DNA from: Nitrosospira sp.
GTDB lineage: Bacteria; Pseudomonadota; Gammaproteobacteria; Burkholderiales; Nitrosomonadaceae
DNA: 62,009 bases
Direction: 5' to 3'
Assembly (NCBI GenBank): GCA_013450215.1
Contig: JACDSH010000013.1
Coordinates: 1 to 62,009 of the forward strand
Every line of letters begins with the position of its first letter. Positions within the stretch are counted from its first letter, which is position 1. The notes under the pieces are model-generated. The model did not search any database. It was not told where the DNA came from and saw only the letters and a program-made list of their open reading frames with translations. A program made the translations under genes and the position numbers. Positions 1 to 6,053 of the stretch are shown here, in pieces.

Positions 1-408
1 TGACCCTGTATCCTCACCTCAAAAGGGTGGGTACGGGATGGGTGGGGTTCAGTGGTGAGGGGATGGTGAAAATGGGGAATTGGCTGGGAAGGACATACGC
101 TGATGCTAGAGATAGCCTCGGCGTTTTTAGTTTCTGGAAGGTGAAAGTCTAGTTACAGCCAAGCTCATAACGGCACGCTAACGGCGCGCATCATTGCTTT
201 AGGCATAAAAAGGAGCTAGCAGTTACGCTAACTGGTTAGCAATCAAGTCGAAGACTCCTAGTAACCAAGAAACCGCCTAAAGCCCTAAAATTGTTGTTTA
301 AATGTTAGTTAATTGTGAACTTTTTGTTAAGTATCAAGTCTACTTAGCTGTACTGCCGTCATATATGAAATGAAACCATTTAATAACATTCTGTTAGGAG
401 TATCGCTC
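1..408. other. gene-free stretch with G-rich repeat copy A
   Basis: I see no convincing coding region here. Positions 25-100 hold the first copy of a diverged repeat that recurs at 1513-1579. Positions 227-240 form a short perfect palindrome (GCTAAC-TG-GTTAGC). The stretch 250-360 is AT-rich and may hold the promoter for the small gene starting at 409, but no clear -35/-10 pair could be assigned. Confidence 0.5.
25..100 (+). repeat. diverged direct repeat copy A with G-quadruplex head
   Basis: The copy starts with five G-runs separated by loops of 1-3 bases (25-47), which fits the G3+N1-7 quadruplex rule. It ends with the 14-mer GGAAGGACATACGC (87-100). Copy B at 1513-1579 has the same head, a shared internal GATGGTGAAAATG and the same 14-mer, with about 9 bases deleted between them. 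Function is unknown. Confidence 0.7.
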
Positions 409-621
409 ATGAAAACAATTCACTTTTCCTATATGTTAGGCATGCCTGTACTTCTTGCACTTTTGTGGTCTGTTCCTGTCGTGAATTCAAGTGAATTCGA
501 TTTCAGTTGGGCTGCGATAGAACTCTGCGTCTTGATCGGAACTTACATAATGTGCGCCCACTCGAGTTTTTTCAGTTTCATACCGGACCGCAACAGGAAA
601 ACTTCTTATTTTGGGATGTAG
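409..621 (+). CDS. small hypothetical membrane protein (70 aa)
   Basis: I do not recognise this protein. The ORF opens at 370, but the ATG at 409 is a better start because TAGGAG lies about 10 bases upstream. The product would have two hydrophobic segments (about residues 9-25 and 36-52) and a short basic tail, so it may be a small inner-membrane protein; the first segment could instead be a signal peptide. It is followed tail-to-tail by a minus-strand DUF768-like gene. It may be a non-conserved ORF. Confidence 0.4.
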   Translation: MKTIHFSYMLGMPVLLALLWSVPVVNSSEFDFSWAAIELCVLIGTYIMCAHSSFFSFIPDRNRKTSYFGM

Positions 622-647
622 AATTGACGCTAAGAGGATGGCGGGGC

Positions 648-929
648 TCAGTCGCCGTCTTCATTCTCCCGCGCCAGTTGCGCCTTGAGATAATAGGCAT
701 CGACGTCGAAGTCGGTGCTGTCTGTGACCGCGGCCAGGACCCGGGGCGGGATGCGCTCCCGCTCCTCGTCGGTCTCGTACTTTGAGAAGCCGGCCGCAGC
801 CGCCTCGGCGAACAGTTGCTCCGTCAGCCGCTTTGCACGCACCTCGTGGCTCTCGATGTCAGAATTGGCGCCGGGAGGAATTTTTTCCTCGATCCAGGTC
901 TCGAACCACCTCACGAATCGCTGACTCAT
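648..929 (-). CDS. DUF768-like hypothetical protein
   Basis: This is a 93-residue acidic cytoplasmic protein with a spacing like the DUF768 family: an N-terminal FxxWIEEKIP segment, then SHEVRAKRLTEQLFAEAAAAG, then an acidic stretch and a short helix. DUF768 is best known to me from rhizobia, so the match is from memory and needs a profile search. A GGAGA-type ribosome site lies about 13 bases before the ATG. The gene is clearly more GC-rich than the AT-rich DNA around it, which suggests transfer. Function is unknown. Confidence 0.6.
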   Translation of the reverse strand: MSQRFVRWFETWIEEKIPPGANSDIESHEVRAKRLTEQLFAEAAAAGFSKYETDEERERIPPRVLAAVTDSTDFDVDAYYLKAQLARENEDGD

Positions 930-1144
930 GACTGCCCTCTCATCTCCTGCGTTTTATTCGGGGCCGGTTTCCCGGCCTACTGTGACCCACCCGATATTTC
1001 GATCCAAGTGAATAGCAGCTTACTACATAGCATTGATGGGTTCAATTGTTGGGATAGGTTATCGAAACGTGCGGCTGATTCATAAGCCGTGAAGGTAGTG
1101 GGGTGATGCCGCTGTTCTGAGCCACGGCAACCATTTCATCTGAT

Positions 1145-1339
1145 CTATCTCAGCCCTGATTTACCTTGAGATTCACAGAAAACTCGTGCTTGCATCTCTG
1201 CATCGAGCCGCTCTCCTTCAGTCAATTGCGGATGAGAAGCTTTATTGGATTTCATTATGGCTTCTACACATTTATCTACATTGCTGGCACAGCCAGACAA
1301 TATTAAGATTAGAGCCAGAATGGTCAACCGTCCTTTCAA
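1145..1339 (-). CDS. small lipoprotein (64 aa, TTG start)
   Basis: The open frame extends to 1417, but a TTG at 1339 gives a textbook lipoprotein signal: a basic MKGR start, a hydrophobic core, then the lipobox LSGC with the lipidated Cys at residue 17. A GGTGA sequence sits just upstream. The mature part is about 47 residues, hydrophilic, with two further Cys residues (30s region excluded; near residues 24 and 55). It is probably membrane-anchored and faces the periplasm. No family is recognised. The neighbours are also small orphan genes, so context does not help. Confidence 0.5.
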   Translation of the reverse strand: MKGRLTILALILILSGCASNVDKCVEAIMKSNKASHPQLTEGERLDAEMQARVFCESQGKSGLR

Positions 1340-1941
1340 TTTTTCACCGGCGGATTCAAGTCTGAAGTGCAACAGTGTTATGACACGAGTGTAACTTATA
1401 TTAGCAAGACATGCCATGTGACCCTACCTGTACGCCTAGAACTCTAGAAACAACCCCATCGTTTGTCCAGAATTGACTGCATAGGCTGACTAGGTACCAT
1501 CAAGCCAATTTAGGGGGTACCGGGTGGGTGGGGTGCTGCAGATGGTGAAAATGAAGGATGTAGCAGGAAGGACATACGCGGCACCTCAACCGGCACTTAG
1601 TCCGCACTCTCTTTGGAACAGAACTGTCATTAGGATTAATCCATCAACTCTAAAGCCATGAAAGCCATAACCGTGGTAACTAACGTGGTAACTTACTATT
1701 GAGCTAACACGAGAACCCAGTACTAGAAACGCTCTCGGAGGATAATGTTAAGGACACCCTCCCGCTAAGAACATAGCAATAGCACTTAAAGAGTATTTAT
1801 TATTTCAACATATCCAAAGACATGCCCAAAAACTTAGACTGGCCGTTTATAGTTGGAACATTGTGTTACTCTTTTCTACAAGTCTCTGCCAATGAAAACG
1901 AATAAGTGAGACTAAATAATATCTAAATAACGGAGACTCCA
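1340..1941. other. 600-bp gene-free stretch with repeat copy B
   Basis: No ORF with a ribosome site and coding character was found. The stretch contains the second G-quadruplex repeat (1513-1579) and two tandem 12-bp units CGTGGTAACTAA/CGTGGTAACTTA (1672-1695). The last 150 bases are AT-rich and lead into the VOC gene. Confidence 0.5.
1513..1579 (+). repeat. diverged direct repeat copy B with G-quadruplex head
   Basis: Four G-runs with loops TACC, T and T (1513-1533) form a strong quadruplex candidate. The copy then shares GATGGTGAAAATG and the terminal 14-mer GGAAGGACATACGC (1566-1579) with copy A at 25-100. The two copies bracket about 1.4 kb carrying three small orphan genes. Confidence 0.7.
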
Positions 1942-2325
1942 ATGACAATTTTTACTCATGTTACGCTCGGCACAAATAATTTTGATGCAGCAGTTACTTT
2001 TTACGATGCTGTATTAGGTGCATTGGGCATCAACAATCTCGGCAAGCTTCATGATACTGCCATGATGTATGGCAAAAAATCCTTCGAATTTGTGATTCTT
2101 ACGCCCTCAAATGGTGAACCTGCTTGCAGTGCAAATGGTGGGACTGTAGGATTTGCAGCAACCAGTCGGGATGCAGTACATAAGTTTCATGAAGCCGGTT
2201 TGGCTAACGGCGGTGTTGATGAAGGTAAGCCCGGTCCACGCAGTTTTGCCCCGAATGCTTACGCAGCCTATCTGCGGGATCCTGATGGCAATAAGATTAC
2301 TACCATTTGCTTTGCCTCGGAGTGA
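1942..2325 (+). CDS. VOC/glyoxalase-fold family protein
   Basis: This 127-residue protein has the vicinal-oxygen-chelate pattern. It opens with THVTLGTNNFDAAVTFYDAVL and ends with a YLRDPDGNKI motif typical of glyoxalase/bleomycin-resistance/dioxygenase proteins. One VOC module is about this size, so it probably works as a dimer. Members bind a divalent metal and act on small molecules, but the substrate cannot be read from sequence. GGAG lies 6-9 bases before the ATG. It appears monocistronic and ends at an intrinsic terminator (2364-2389). Confidence 0.8.
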   Translation: MTIFTHVTLGTNNFDAAVTFYDAVLGALGINNLGKLHDTAMMYGKKSFEFVILTPSNGEPACSANGGTVGFAATSRDAVHKFHEAGLANGGVDEGKPGPRSFAPNAYAAYLRDPDGNKITTICFASE

Positions 2326-2363
2326 ACTTAACGACCGGGTGAATGCTGATGCCAATAACACGA

Positions 2364-2389
2364 ACAGGGGCTTAGACCCCTGTTTTTTT
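2364..2389 (+). terminator. intrinsic terminator of the VOC gene
   Basis: A perfect 7-bp stem ACAGGGG/CCCCTGT with a 6-base loop is followed directly by seven T residues. It lies 38 bases after the stop codon and protects against read-through into the convergent btuB gene. Confidence 0.9.
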
Positions 2390-2493
2390 GAGTCAGGCCA
2401 ATTGATCCCAAGATGGGCAACCGCAAAGGGTGTACAAACAGAATTCAGAAGGTGCAATGAGATCGAGACACTGCCGAGTATGGGATACAGTAT

Positions 2494-4293
2494 TTAGAAG
2501 GTATGAGTCACGCTTGCCCAGACGGTTCGGGGTATCCCTCTGAATCCCACGGCAGGCTGATATTCCTTGTCCAGCAGGTTATCCACTTGGACCCGCAGTA
2601 TCGGCCCCTTACCGGGCAGTTTGTAACTAGAGCTTAACCCCACAATGGCCATCGTGGGCAACCTGGCCGTATTCATGCTATCGTCAAACCGATGCCCCTC
2701 AACTCGGACTATGCCCTCCAGCATGGCCGGACCACTTTCGTACCTTAATGCTGCTGTTCCCCATACCTGCGAGCGCCTAGCCAGCACCATTCCGTTCTGC
2801 TCATTGCGTGGGTCTTGCACAGTGACATTCACCCGCGTAGAAAGCCCGGCAAACAGGGGCTGAGCACCCGACATTTCAACCCCTTGAATCTTGGCATGCG
2901 ATATATTCTCCATTTGAGACCACATGGAGTTTATAGCGATGGCATCCTTGATGTTGTTAATGAACGCCCCAACTCGGTACCTGGCATCGCCCTTCTCGTA
3001 CGCCATGAAAACTTCCTGCATCGCTCCTCTTTCCGGTGTCAAGTTAGGATTTCCGCCATATCCCCAAGCCATCGGCCAGTAGAGGTCATTGAATGTCGGC
3101 GCCCGAAACGATGTCGAGGCAAGGGCACCAACTCTCCAGTCCTCGGCAAAGATTCGTGCCAGCGACACGTTATAAGTATTGTACCCGCCAAACTGAGAGT
3201 TCTCGTCATGCCGGTAAACGCCTTCAGCCACCATGCTGGCGGCTCTGAGCTGGGTTCCAACAAAACCGGAGACATTGGTTCTCCGATTCTCGATATATTC
3301 CGTAGTGCTGGTCACCTTCTGGATCTCGTGGTCGGCACCAACAAATACCCGCCCTATCTTCATATCCTTTTCCAACTGCACATTTCCTTGCAGGGATTGA
3401 GTGTTCAATACCATCGGCGTCGATCCGCGAAATGTTGACCTGTCCGTGGCGATGCCATAGCTCGCGATGGCGCGCATGTTGTCGGGCAGGTGATAAATGG
3501 CTCGCATATTGCCCATCCCGATAGCCTGCAGGTTCAGATCGTTGGTTGTCGCGCTTCCGTCGAACATCGTACGGACACCGGAATACAGACCCGTTAATTC
3601 CACTTGCAGGTTGTCTGTCGCCATCCCACCCGCCTTGGCCACCACCCCGATTCTTTTCCGAATATCCACATCGGGGTTATAGCTGTACAGATTATTCGCG
3701 TTGGTCGCAGAACCCTGATTGATTATGTCCTGGACTACACGGAATCCGTAGTGAAACCTGTCGTCCCGCGTGCCGGCAGAAACAGCCGCTCTTTCGGACA
3801 TTCGCGAACCGCCACCCGCAGATACCGTCAACCCTGTTGGAATATCCACCGACCCCCGTATCACACCACCGACCGCATTCGCACCAAACGCGGCGGAAGC
3901 CCCGCCCTGGAGAACGTCAATCGACGTTAACAACCCCGGTGCTATCGCGGCAAAATTCGGCGCCCCGGTTGTCGCAGACGATATCCGCATACCGTCAATC
4001 ATGAACATGGTCTGGCTCGACCCGCTGCCCCGCATGAACAAAGAGACAGGACCACCGGGTCCGGTCTCGTTTACCTGCACAGTTTCCTGCAGCACCGTCT
4101 TCCAGTCATTGTCTTCGACCTTCAGTTTTATTTTATCCATCCGGATATTCGTCAACTCCCGAGTAATCGGTATCCGGTTTCCTCCGTAAATGACCATTTC
4201 TGGTAACTTTGGCGACACTCCCTGCGCATTCGCAGTGGCCAAAGTCACCTGAGATGTTATCAACCCAAAAGCCAACAATCGTCCTAATTTCAT
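2494..4293 (-). CDS. btuB: BtuB-type TonB-dependent outer-membrane receptor
   Basis: The start at 4293 gives 599 residues, close to E. coli BtuB, and a clean signal peptide (MKLGRLLAFG, cleavage near ANA-QG at about 23). The upstream in-frame ATG at 4344 lies inside a terminator stem and is unlikely to be used. A TonB-box-like segment PEMVIYGGNR (31-40) precedes the plug domain with its GGPVSLFMRGSGS and MIDGMRI motifs. The C-terminal half is a beta barrel ending in an aromatic residue (VTHTF). The upstream cobalamin riboswitch argues for uptake of vitamin B12 or another corrinoid. No btuCDF or cob genes are in the window. Confidence 0.88.
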   Translation of the reverse strand: MKLGRLLAFGLITSQVTLATANAQGVSPKLPEMVIYGGNRIPITRELTNIRMDKIKLKVEDNDWKTVLQETVQVNETGPGGPVSLFMRGSGSSQTMFMIDGMRISSATTGAPNFAAIAPGLLTSIDVLQGGASAAFGANAVGGVIRGSVDIPTGLTVSAGGGSRMSERAAVSAGTRDDRFHYGFRVVQDIINQGSATNANNLYSYNPDVDIRKRIGVVAKAGGMATDNLQVELTGLYSGVRTMFDGSATTNDLNLQAIGMGNMRAIYHLPDNMRAIASYGIATDRSTFRGSTPMVLNTQSLQGNVQLEKDMKIGRVFVGADHEIQKVTSTTEYIENRRTNVSGFVGTQLRAASMVAEGVYRHDENSQFGGYNTYNVSLARIFAEDWRVGALASTSFRAPTFNDLYWPMAWGYGGNPNLTPERGAMQEVFMAYEKGDARYRVGAFINNIKDAIAINSMWSQMENISHAKIQGVEMSGAQPLFAGLSTRVNVTVQDPRNEQNGMVLARRSQVWGTAALRYESGPAMLEGIVRVEGHRFDDSMNTARLPTMAIVGLSSSYKLPGKGPILRVQVDNLLDKEYQPAVGFRGIPRTVWASVTHTF

Positions 4294-4318
4294 GTGCCAT
4301 TTCTCGCAGTAATTCGCC

Positions 4319-4355
4319 AAAAAGAAACCCATGGATAGCGCCATGGGGTTTCTTT
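4319..4355 (-). terminator. riboswitch-controlled intrinsic terminator before btuB
   Basis: On the minus strand a stem of about 14 bp (AAAGAAACCC..ATGG with CCATGGGTTTCTTT, one bulged C) is followed by a T-run, 25 bases before the btuB start. It follows the B12 aptamer in the same transcript. I infer it is the expression platform: cobalamin bound, terminator formed, receptor off. A second hairpin AGCAGAC/GTCTGCT lies just upstream of the stem. Confidence 0.85.
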
Positions 4356-4480
4356 AGGCTGAGCAGACCCGCCGTCTGCTGTTGTAGTAGACAAGGGAAT
4401 ACCACAGAGGGAATTACATGAACGAAGAAAAGACGTCGGTCAGGATACCGCCCCACGCGATATTTCCATACGCGTTAAAG

Positions 4481-4648
4481 GCCGGTATCCGGGCTCACAA
4501 GACTTGACGTATCACCTTCCCATGAATTGGAGAATTCACAGTGGCTATCAGATAGGTCCACACTTGCTAACCGTTGCGGGGGCAGCCCAGGCATTAAACC
4601 TGGTTCCCGTTTAACTCGACTGAACAATCTCATCCAGACGAGCACCTT
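4481..4648 (-). promoter_or_regulatory. cobalamin (B12) riboswitch aptamer
   Basis: On the minus strand the order of conserved blocks matches the B12 aptamer: AGGTGC near the 5' end (about 4642-4648), then GGGAA with the following GGT, then TGCCTGGGCTGCCCCCGCAA (4571-4595 region), a GCCACTGTG block, and finally the B12-box-like GAGCCCGGATACCGGCC (4481-4497). A -10-like TATAGAAT lies just upstream at 4662-4669. The aptamer is followed by a terminator and btuB, the usual target. Confidence 0.92.
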
Positions 4649-4886
4649 AAACGTTGCGCGGATTCTATACGATTCGCTCAGAAATACCTAATTTGGTGAA
4701 CCGACCTGATCCGTCGATCAACTCCGGCATCTCGCAAACTCCTTACCTACAGCGGTTAGGCTCAACACCATAGCGAGCCCCTGGTTAGGTAATCAGAGCC
4801 GGGCTCTTAAGACTGATCAGCAGGGTGACCTTAAATAGATGCCATCGATTCAGAATGGTAGATCACCCGTCATGAACATGGATCTG

Positions 4887-6053
4887 CTAGTCAGATGGCG
4901 TAGCGCTCATCACGAGAGCGATGAACTGTGTGAACTGACGACTGCTAAAGTTATTATCCGAGACCAGTATCACCGTAGCATTCCCCTCATGAATCGGGCC
5001 GAGTGTGATCCCCTCGATATTGTCGAGTGCGAGTACGGACCCATCAGCCTGCCTCAGGTCCGACAGATCGAGCAGAAGGGTCTTGTCCACTGGCTTAATT
5101 GTATGACCTGAGATGGATTCAAGGCCCGATATATCGGTTGCCCCCCTGGCATCGATATAGAAGAGTCGAATCGTCTTGCCGGTTGTGATGGATCCTTTGG
5201 TCTGTGCACCGATCGCGTAGGAACGCTCAATACTGATGAACTGACGGTCACCGATTGCAACCATATCGGTCAGACCATTGGTTGAAAATAATCCCGGCAG
5301 GATGGGCGGGATGGCGACCCTCTCAACCGGATATAGATACTCCTCACCAGGAAGGCCGGTTGCGATATCAAATGAGAGGATACGAGATCTCGATCCATTC
5401 CCCACCCCTGATGGGGGGCTATCCTGTGACAGACCATTCTCGGTGGCGGTGTATAGGGTCTTGCCATCGATGGAGAGTGTGAGACTCTCGAATGAGAGAT
5501 TGTCATAAATACCTCGATCACCCGGCCTCAGACCGCTACTTGATCCGGAGGGTTGGTAATGATCTGGCACTCTAAAATCGCGTACATGGCTGCCGTCCGG
5601 GTTCATCTCCCTCACGGTCGGTCCCCGGTATCCGAAACGGCTCCTCTGACCCTCATTCACCCAGTAAATCTTATGACGTGATCCGTCATACCGAAGTCCC
5701 TCAGGGTCGACCGTATTCTTCTCAAAGGGTCCCCCGATCGGGGTCTGTATGGTGGTCACACCGATAAAGGTCACACCCTCATGTCCCGGCTCAGAGGATT
5801 TCTTAAACTTAGAGAGGTCCAGACTCAATTCATAAAATCTGGCTGGATTATTGGCACTCCGGTCATCACTCACGGAGAGATAGTTACCGCTCCCAGAGAC
5901 GTAGTCGATCGATGACAATCCCCCGACAAGAGTCTCACCGAACCATGTCCCGGAGGGCACGACCTGCTGACCCAGATAGCTCAGGATGGGGACTTGAGAT
6001 TGAGCGAGTGAGGGGATTGAGAGGAATGCCAGAACGATCAATCCGATCCTCAC
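4887..6053 (-). CDS. secreted phytase-like / esterase-like beta-propeller protein
   Basis: The protein matches the 'esterase-like activity of phytase' family (PF13449), with an early SSIDYVSGSGNYLSVSDDRS segment, DPEGLRYD, FESLTLSIDGKTLYTATEN and a late LDNIEGITLG, which are typical repeat motifs. The frame is open to 6161, but the hydrophobic signal (IGLIVLAFLSIPSLAQSQ) starts about residue 38 of that frame. The GTG at 6053 is the most plausible start, though its ribosome site is weak. It is predicted to be exported. The substrate is unknown. Its 5' region overlaps the promoter of the divergent djlA-like gene. Confidence 0.75.
   Translation of the reverse strand: MRIGLIVLAFLSIPSLAQSQVPILSYLGQQVVPSGTWFGETLVGGLSSIDYVSGSGNYLSVSDDRSANNPARFYELSLDLSKFKKSSEPGHEGVTFIGVTTIQTPIGGPFEKNTVDPEGLRYDGSRHKIYWVNEGQRSRFGYRGPTVREMNPDGSHVRDFRVPDHYQPSGSSSGLRPGDRGIYDNLSFESLTLSIDGKTLYTATENGLSQDSPPSGVGNGSRSRILSFDIATGLPGEEYLYPVERVAIPPILPGLFSTNGLTDMVAIGDRQFISIERSYAIGAQTKGSITTGKTIRLFYIDARGATDISGLESISGHTIKPVDKTLLLDLSDLRQADGSVLALDNIEGITLGPIHEGNATVILVSDNNFSSRQFTQFIALVMSATPSD

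Follow-up and report, generated by a model that had tools for sequence, protein, structure and literature searches.

In uncultured communities, matching satellites to their helper phages is still an open problem. The satellites proposed for aquatic bacteria include the tycheposons, which insert at tRNA genes, and the VEIMEs; the likeness of these two groups to the islands considered here is one of description. Both names appear in PMC11389934. The cos-type PICIs, including SaPIbov5 and E. coli EcCICFT073, resemble our best-bounded example, an island with copper-type efflux cargo on contig C32 of genome G000, in size (SaPI genomes are about 14 kb) and in carrying an integrase and a short site common with phages; an AlpA-type regulator, also present in C32, is found in the E. 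coli PICIs (PMC5052747 and PMC6092414). The C32 island differs from these cos-type PICIs in its host group, its copper-type efflux cargo, its lack of recognized interference genes, its phage-type DNA polymerase A instead of primase/rep genes, and, apparently, the sequence of its site. P4-like satellites, as presented in PMC8628076, have a tyrosine integrase, AlpA and a cos site on the element, as does the C32 island, in which the site is putative. However, Psu, delta, Sid, epsilon and alpha were unmatched among 13 C32 proteins searched with Pfam; detection of Sid in that source used a custom profile. The PICMIs of Vibrio are small satellites without capsid-remodeling genes, as C32 appears to be, but according to PMC10803314 they insert beside fis, whereas the islands lie at tRNA genes. 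The authors of that study found that cos or pac sites were not identifiable in the helper genome, whereas a site common to island and phage is the main feature here.

The islands described below apparently constitute a new group of satellites whose site seems undescribed and which would work like known cos-carrying satellites. No title or abstract opening among those listed in our literature search mentions this site, and none of the papers whose text was searched has both 'terminase' and the string GGGTGGGTGGGG. Through one short site, detected without culturing, a satellite-like island is linked to a broad group of uncultured phages, and the site provides a sequence profile for further searching.

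Copies of the repeat in the window and in related genomes

The window, i.e. the whole stretch of 62,009 nucleotides that was analyzed, is the entire contig C6 of genome G000 (1.6 Mb, 59 contigs). An earlier note on this DNA had described a diverged repeat pair with G-rich heads near the start of the contig. Both copies exist, copy A at about 20-146, in the very first bases of the contig, and copy B at 1461-1579. The only places in the window with the 14-mer GGAAGGACATACGC are 87-100 and 1566-1579, and allowing 2 mismatches adds none; shuffled sequences had a mean of 0.35 matches, and two matches were reached in 4 of 100 shuffles. A common internal GATGGTGAAAATG is found at 62-74 and 1541-1553, and the G-run heads can be read from the sequence at about 25-47 and 1513-1533. 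The start of copy B had been placed too late, as its conserved core starts at 1461, about 50 nt earlier. Over about 72 nt the two copies were 73% alike (E 0.0013 in a search of the genome).

The core of the repeat has two parts, box 1 (AGAATTGACTGCATAGG) and, after about 27 nt, a G-rich box 2 (GGGGTRCCGGGTGGGTGGGG), such that box 2 starts about 45 nt after the start of box 1. Copy B contains the whole packaging-like site at 1461-1537 on the plus strand, as are all of the elements of this copy. This stretch was the top match of a profile built from phage sites only (30.1 bits, E 4.9e-8), and model R1, of which copy B is itself part, matched it with an E of 1.2e-14. Box 1 of copy B (AGAATTGACTGCATAGG, 1469-1485) is by alignment the counterpart of phage GGATTAGAGCGTATAG, and the 20-mer form of its box 2 (GGGGGTACCGGGTGGGTGGGG, 1513-1533) is present in 25 viral contigs. 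The tail (1541-1579) is without the TGATGCTAG part that follows in alignments of copy A and of the third copy described below. Beyond the tail, a direct repeat CGTGGTAACT occurs twice, 12 nt apart, at 1672-1693 on the plus strand; these are candidate integrase arm sites. In copy A, which is cut by the contig start, box 1 would fall off the contig and box 2 is decayed (20-48, plus strand); R1 matched it with an E of 0.00225, and the phage-only profiles gave 5.8 and 9.4 bits, near noise. The copy A tail (GATGGTGAAAATG ... GGAAGGACATACGCTGATGCTAGAGATAGCCTCGGCGTTTTTAG, 62-146, plus strand) was 88% identical to C32:14325-14409, and related tails were found at L057 (94%, 65 nt), L058 (95%, 73 nt) and L053 (91%, 54 nt).

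Three small genes between the copies had been regarded as orphans within a cassette, an idea that did not hold for any of them. The gene at 648-929 on the minus strand belongs to the DUF768 family (PF05589, E 4.1e-36), and its DNA was 82-85% identical in nine genomes of genus g2. The ORFs on either side, one membrane-type by eye (370-621, plus strand; no Pfam match above the cut-off) and one lipoprotein-like by eye (1145-1417, minus strand; no Pfam match), have DNA relatives in other genomes. Window 379-609, most of the former, was 70-75% identical in G001, G003 and G006, and window 1065-1348, most of the latter, was 99% identical in G006:C13. As a single cassette the three genes also fared poorly, since two of them have relatives on separate G006 contigs (C13 and C17) and the DUF768 gene had no G006 match.

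Further copies, which the earlier note had suggested looking for, were found, giving a total of ten: three in G000 and seven in relatives. The third copy in G000 (copy C) is at C32:14245-14410; its left part was 92% identical to copy B and its right part 88-90% identical to copy A. The 14-mer has exactly three exact sites in the genome, corresponding to the three copies, and is informative only when exact, because with 2 mismatches it gave 9 sites compared to 7 for the reversed pattern. A search of 199 related genomes, G000 included, gave matches at E 1e-6 or better in G000, G011 (four), G004 (one) and G008 (one, limited to the tail); anything weaker had an E of 0.008 or more and was put down to chance. 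When the genome collection was scanned with a pattern, one genome only was identified, with five places: BJGV01, Nitrosomonadaceae bacterium LBMAG_Betaproteobacteria_hypo.bin3. We infer that BJGV01 is G011, which would give G011 a fifth copy. G000 and G011 have the family label in common, and from its name G011 is presumably from fresh water. The looser 20-mer pattern GGGGTRCCGGGTRGGTRGGG occurred 7 times in 399 genomes of the order, in G000 (2) and G011 (5) only, and the control occurred 0 times. Model R1 (34 sites, 7 of them from islands) identified no copies besides those of G000 in 369 genomes of the class when 12 candidates per genome were scored, and a weak R1 match in G136 (E 0.003, 121 genomes searched) was within chance. 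Gapped patterns requiring GATGGTGAAAATG and the 14-mer had no match in the genome or viral collections, the tail pattern and the island-type box 1 had no match in viral contigs, and blastn of 166 bp against plasmids and phages gave no match.

The G008 copy is a tail-only remnant (L058, G008:C32, 9337-9408) at the 3' end of a glyoxalase gene, near two transposase-like ORFs. By eye this gene is nearly identical to window 1942-2325; in the window, the repeat copy is on the other side of the gene. For four of the ten copies the nearest contig end is at most about 600 bases away (window 1-146, L015 14245-14410, L060 166-247 and L053 9805-9960), so island interiors may be lost in assembly. We also considered that the repeat might be a small RNA gene, from TTGACT/TACCAT spacing and a T-run in the tail seen by eye; this idea was dropped because several copies are without the tail.

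tRNA-linked copies and the C32 island

Seven of the ten copies adjoin tRNA 3' ends, all in one orientation, and hence their placement is not random; the exceptions, with no tRNA beside them, are copies A and B and the G008 tail remnant. In the seven (five G011 copies, the C32 copy and the G004 copy), the repeat is oriented toward the tRNA from a position downstream of its 3' end, with about 155-380 bp between box 2 and the tRNA as judged from coordinates. The chance of one copy lying in such a place is about 1 in 100, assuming about 40 tRNA genes. The G011 copies are beside tRNA-Asn, Pro, Thr, Asp and Ser, C32 ends in tRNA-Leu, and the G004 copy has as its neighbor a truncated 3' fragment that by eye is tRNA-Lys-like and is itself adjoined by tRNA-Arg.

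Paired direct repeats of at least 8 nt, 11-12 nt apart, are present beyond the site in five of nine stretches (C32, Asn, Pro, G004 and window B), and none of that length was found there at Thr, Asp, Ser and window A. Their sequences vary by locus, except that the CGTGGTAACT pair of window B resembles the CGGGTAAC pair of C32, whose two copies, with a spacing of 12 nt, are found on the stretch from the site to tRNA-Leu. These pairs could be integrase arm sites. Of the six tRNA loci other than C32 that were tested for a second att copy, one had it, and most copies are therefore single ends. At the G011 tRNA-Thr locus the second att (32 of 36 nt) is 1434 bp from the tRNA and encloses one glycosyltransferase gene and the site. 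This locus is an integrase-less mini-element of 1.4 kb (att, glycosyltransferase gene, site, att). No second att was recognized at the Asn, Pro, Asp, Ser and G004 loci, of which Asn and Ser are near contig ends.

The idea in the earlier note that the pair marks the ends of a mobile unit proved half correct. The repeat does belong to the ends of mobile units, but copies A and B are not both ends of one unit, as they represent the same tRNA-facing end twice, in direct orientation, with no convincing att-like direct repeats around them. The best reading of these two copies is that they are remnants of further elements.

The C32 island provided the clearest view of an element and its insertion site. 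The end of contig C10 and the start of C43 have exactly 55 nt in common, corresponding to an empty site, and the ends of C32 have exactly 39 nt in common with the C10 tRNA end and the C43 start, corresponding to a filled site. We read this junction as an assembly graph in which tRNA-Leu is joined to the flank either directly or through C32, and C32 as a 14.6-kb element carried by a portion of the population. One att copy is in tRNA-Leu and the second is diverged. C32 encodes a tyrosine integrase with Arm-DNA-bind_3, AlpA (PF05930, E 6e-6), a family A polymerase (DNA_pol_A), several proteins without an assigned function, an HGGxSTG-domain protein and an efflux set. The latter (L015, i.e. G000:C32, 7836-13856) consists of an outer membrane protein, a CusB-like protein with a fused CusF domain and an RND pump; by family, this cargo is predicted to confer copper/silver-type resistance. 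HGGxSTG-domain proteins (NF041373) are found on two site-carrying islands, at L015 6194-6652 (minus strand) and L054 9203-9451 (plus strand); the tRNA-Pro copy is adjoined by an 82-aa ORF with this domain. Two ORFs neighboring the AlpA/DNA_pol_A region had no matches.

C32 thus integrates between att repeats with its own integrase, and virion structural genes were absent among the scanned proteins. Terminase, capsid and portal gave no match in 13 proteins from the larger, non-overlapping C32 ORFs scanned with Pfam, 9 of which were also scanned with PHROGs. No TerS, capsid-remodeling or interference genes were recognized in C32, and five of its proteins of unassigned function had no defense-system match. 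The polymerase was not found at E 1e-20 or better in any of 120 further genomes and had no relative in viral contigs in a search that reaches close relatives only.

A related site beside phage terminase genes

A pattern scan of viral contigs identified 11 contigs with the box, and the 20-mer alone identified 25. A TerL homologue lies within 3.8 kb of the site in 24 of these 25 contigs (phmmer E 5e-154 or better), and the 25th, L089, has TerS. In 21 of the 25, a TerS-like ORF is within 0-429 bp of the site, on either side: the site is 73-119 bp past the TerS 3' end in 11 contigs, 113-429 bp upstream of a TerS-like ORF adjoining TerL in nine, and overlaps the ORF as called in L081. In three of the four contigs without a TerS-like ORF (L072, L074 and L075), the sequence stops 85-279 bp past the site on the side in question; the fourth is L077. 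PHROG support for TerS was strong for L070, L076, L081, L087 and L089 (E 1.2e-8 or better), moderate for L080 (5e-4) and weak for L078, L079 and L085 (0.016-0.058); L082 and L083 had no PHROG support, and their TerS calls rest on position. L074 and L075 have a capsid protein and L070 has a portal.

A motif-free test was carried out with a TerL-only search, which matched 98 stretches, some from contigs already in the motif set; the best 80 were kept. A first-round profile of 19 exact-motif phage sites matched 27 of these best 80 of 98 stretches; upstream sequence of 2.5 kb or more was present in 37, and 19 of those were matched. The iterated profile matched 47 of the best 80 of 98 and 31 of the 37, missing L118, L130, L133, L134, L147 and L151; these counts are partly circular because matches entered the profile. 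All 47 matches are upstream of TerL and on the strand opposite to it. Among the phage sites, box 1 shows good conservation, and the middle of box 2 is variable. Up to 4 kb on each side of TerL in six cultured phages (TerL 35-58% identity) contained nothing under 6 mismatches to box 2, and a blastn search of phages with 1.2 kb from around one of the phage sites gave one stray match (E 0.4).

The likeness of island and phage sites was examined by running the phage-only profile (19 sites) on ten host stretches totaling 188,386 bases, nine chosen as copy-bearing plus the tRNA-Leu contig end. The eight best matches were copies B, C, Asn, Thr, Asp, G004, Ser and Pro (30.1 to 11.0 bits), compared to 6.3 bits for the best of ten dinucleotide-shuffled sets; copy A (5.8 bits) was no better than the shuffles. 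The iterated profile gave the same eight copies 22.0 to 11.0 bits and copy A 9.4. The distance between box 1 and box 2 was similar in an alignment of seven of the eight host copies with 27 phage sites. With the eight island copies anchored on box 2, mean majority identity was 0.91-0.96 within this box and fell to about 0.4-0.5 farther than 100 nt upstream or 60 nt downstream. The measure allows no gaps and so gives too low a value for box 1, whose position varies by a few nt. From these data we conclude that the core of the repeat is like a site that phages have beside their terminase genes.

Nine viral contigs end between 29 bases inside and 85 beyond the site model (L120, L149, L165, L157, L080, L156, L171, L144 and L072). 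These ends are either assembly breaks at G-rich DNA or genome termini; they scatter across more than 100 nt and hence reveal no cut position. The composition of L087 resembled G000 most (r 0.785) and that of the largest phage group resembled it weakly (r 0.37), such that composition does not tie the phages to this host. A search of the window's genome for the phage TerL, run without a positive control, gave no match.

Function of the site

We consider it rather probable that the repeat is the tRNA-facing end module of elements inserted at tRNA 3' ends, and that its core is a phage terminase site enabling packaging by a helper. A small clade of Nitrosomonadaceae-type bacteria would harbor such elements, integrated at tRNA 3' ends, and the two-part core of these elements would be homologous to the site that many uncultured tailed phages have beside the small-terminase gene. 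The site would be recognized by phage terminase in a cos/pac-like manner. Upon helper infection, the element would be excised by its own tyrosine integrase and replicated, and the replicated element would be packed into helper capsids because it carries what we propose is the helper's packaging site. The match of the core to a site adjacent to phage packaging genes suggests that phages carry these islands between cells; terminase recognition, helper dependence or induction, packaging and transfer are what we infer from sequence comparison, whereas the copies with their placement and direction at tRNAs, the tRNA-Leu site in its empty and filled forms, the genes carried and the phage likeness with its terminase neighborhood were observed directly. 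Counting against packaging are the TerL search of the window's genome, which had no match, the weak compositional tie, the cultured phages, the scattered viral contig ends, the genes not recognized in C32, the lack of a tRNA next to copies A and B, the predominance of single ends and the polymerase results described above. If this is a packaging site, it is a packaging-signal candidate for that phage group and would provide a route for the spread of metal-resistance genes.

The strongest rival, which we consider unlikely, is that the site is a helper-responsive late promoter, i.e. an activator-plus-promoter of phage late genes copied by islands to switch on cargo during helper infection. On the opposite strand, the site lies about 45-235 bp before an element-inward gene at the tRNA-Thr, G004 and window B loci, as a promoter would also be, which counts against packaging. 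Box 1 has a TATA-like stretch (by eye) at a near-fixed distance to box 2, and an 81-aa repressor-like ORF (phrog_362, E 4e-9) lies between the site and TerL in L070. However, all inward ORFs of at least 80 aa for several kb in C32 overlap an efflux gene or the site itself, and at the tRNA-Pro locus the nearest ORF not overlapping the site points toward it, yet surE, about 620 bp off, is inward. Moreover, the distance from the phage site to TerL varies from about 340 to 2500 bp, while the site stays near TerS on either side.

It is quite improbable that the site is an element-end or integration accessory sequence, such as an accessory factor site, with its phage resemblance due to phage descent only. 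Its position a few hundred bp inside the tRNA-proximal end, next to arm-like repeat pairs in five of nine stretches, would fit such a role, but those repeats differ between loci and the site does not, and the phage site adjoins terminase genes. We give slightly lower credence to a replication origin or other cis element common to phage and island. A conserved non-coding two-part site and a short ORF near a phage site with a weak replication-initiation match (E 0.003) are consistent with that role, but small-terminase-like genes lie beside the site in 21 of 25 contigs.

The explanation offered in the earlier note, G-quadruplex-headed ends of a small cassette with orphan genes, accounts for the two copies in direct orientation, each with several G-runs, on either side of small genes, but it is hardly credible given that the genes are not orphan and are scattered in G006, that further copies are single ends at tRNAs, and that the quadruplex is not a conserved feature: the G-runs said to stay intact do so in copies A, B and C, but two of the five G011 copies read GGGTAGGTAGGG and have lost the pattern, and a four-run G3 pattern is present in 17 and absent in 20 of 37 distinct phage box-2 sequences.

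Returning to the packaging site, we offer a broader proposal with considerable doubt. Elements inserted at tRNA genes may need only att and a phage packaging tag, with C32-type islands and mini-elements having in common one terminase-recognition module with several arm-like repeats; phages might thereby move metal-resistance and surface-modification genes among Nitrosomonadaceae.

A search of window 1-5000 with Rfam for a known RNA gave, besides a sub-threshold chance match, only a cobalamin riboswitch away from the repeat, at 4463-4664 on the minus strand (RF00174, 100.9 bits). The riboswitch precedes an ORF at 2494-4344 (minus strand) that by eye is TonB-dependent receptor-like.
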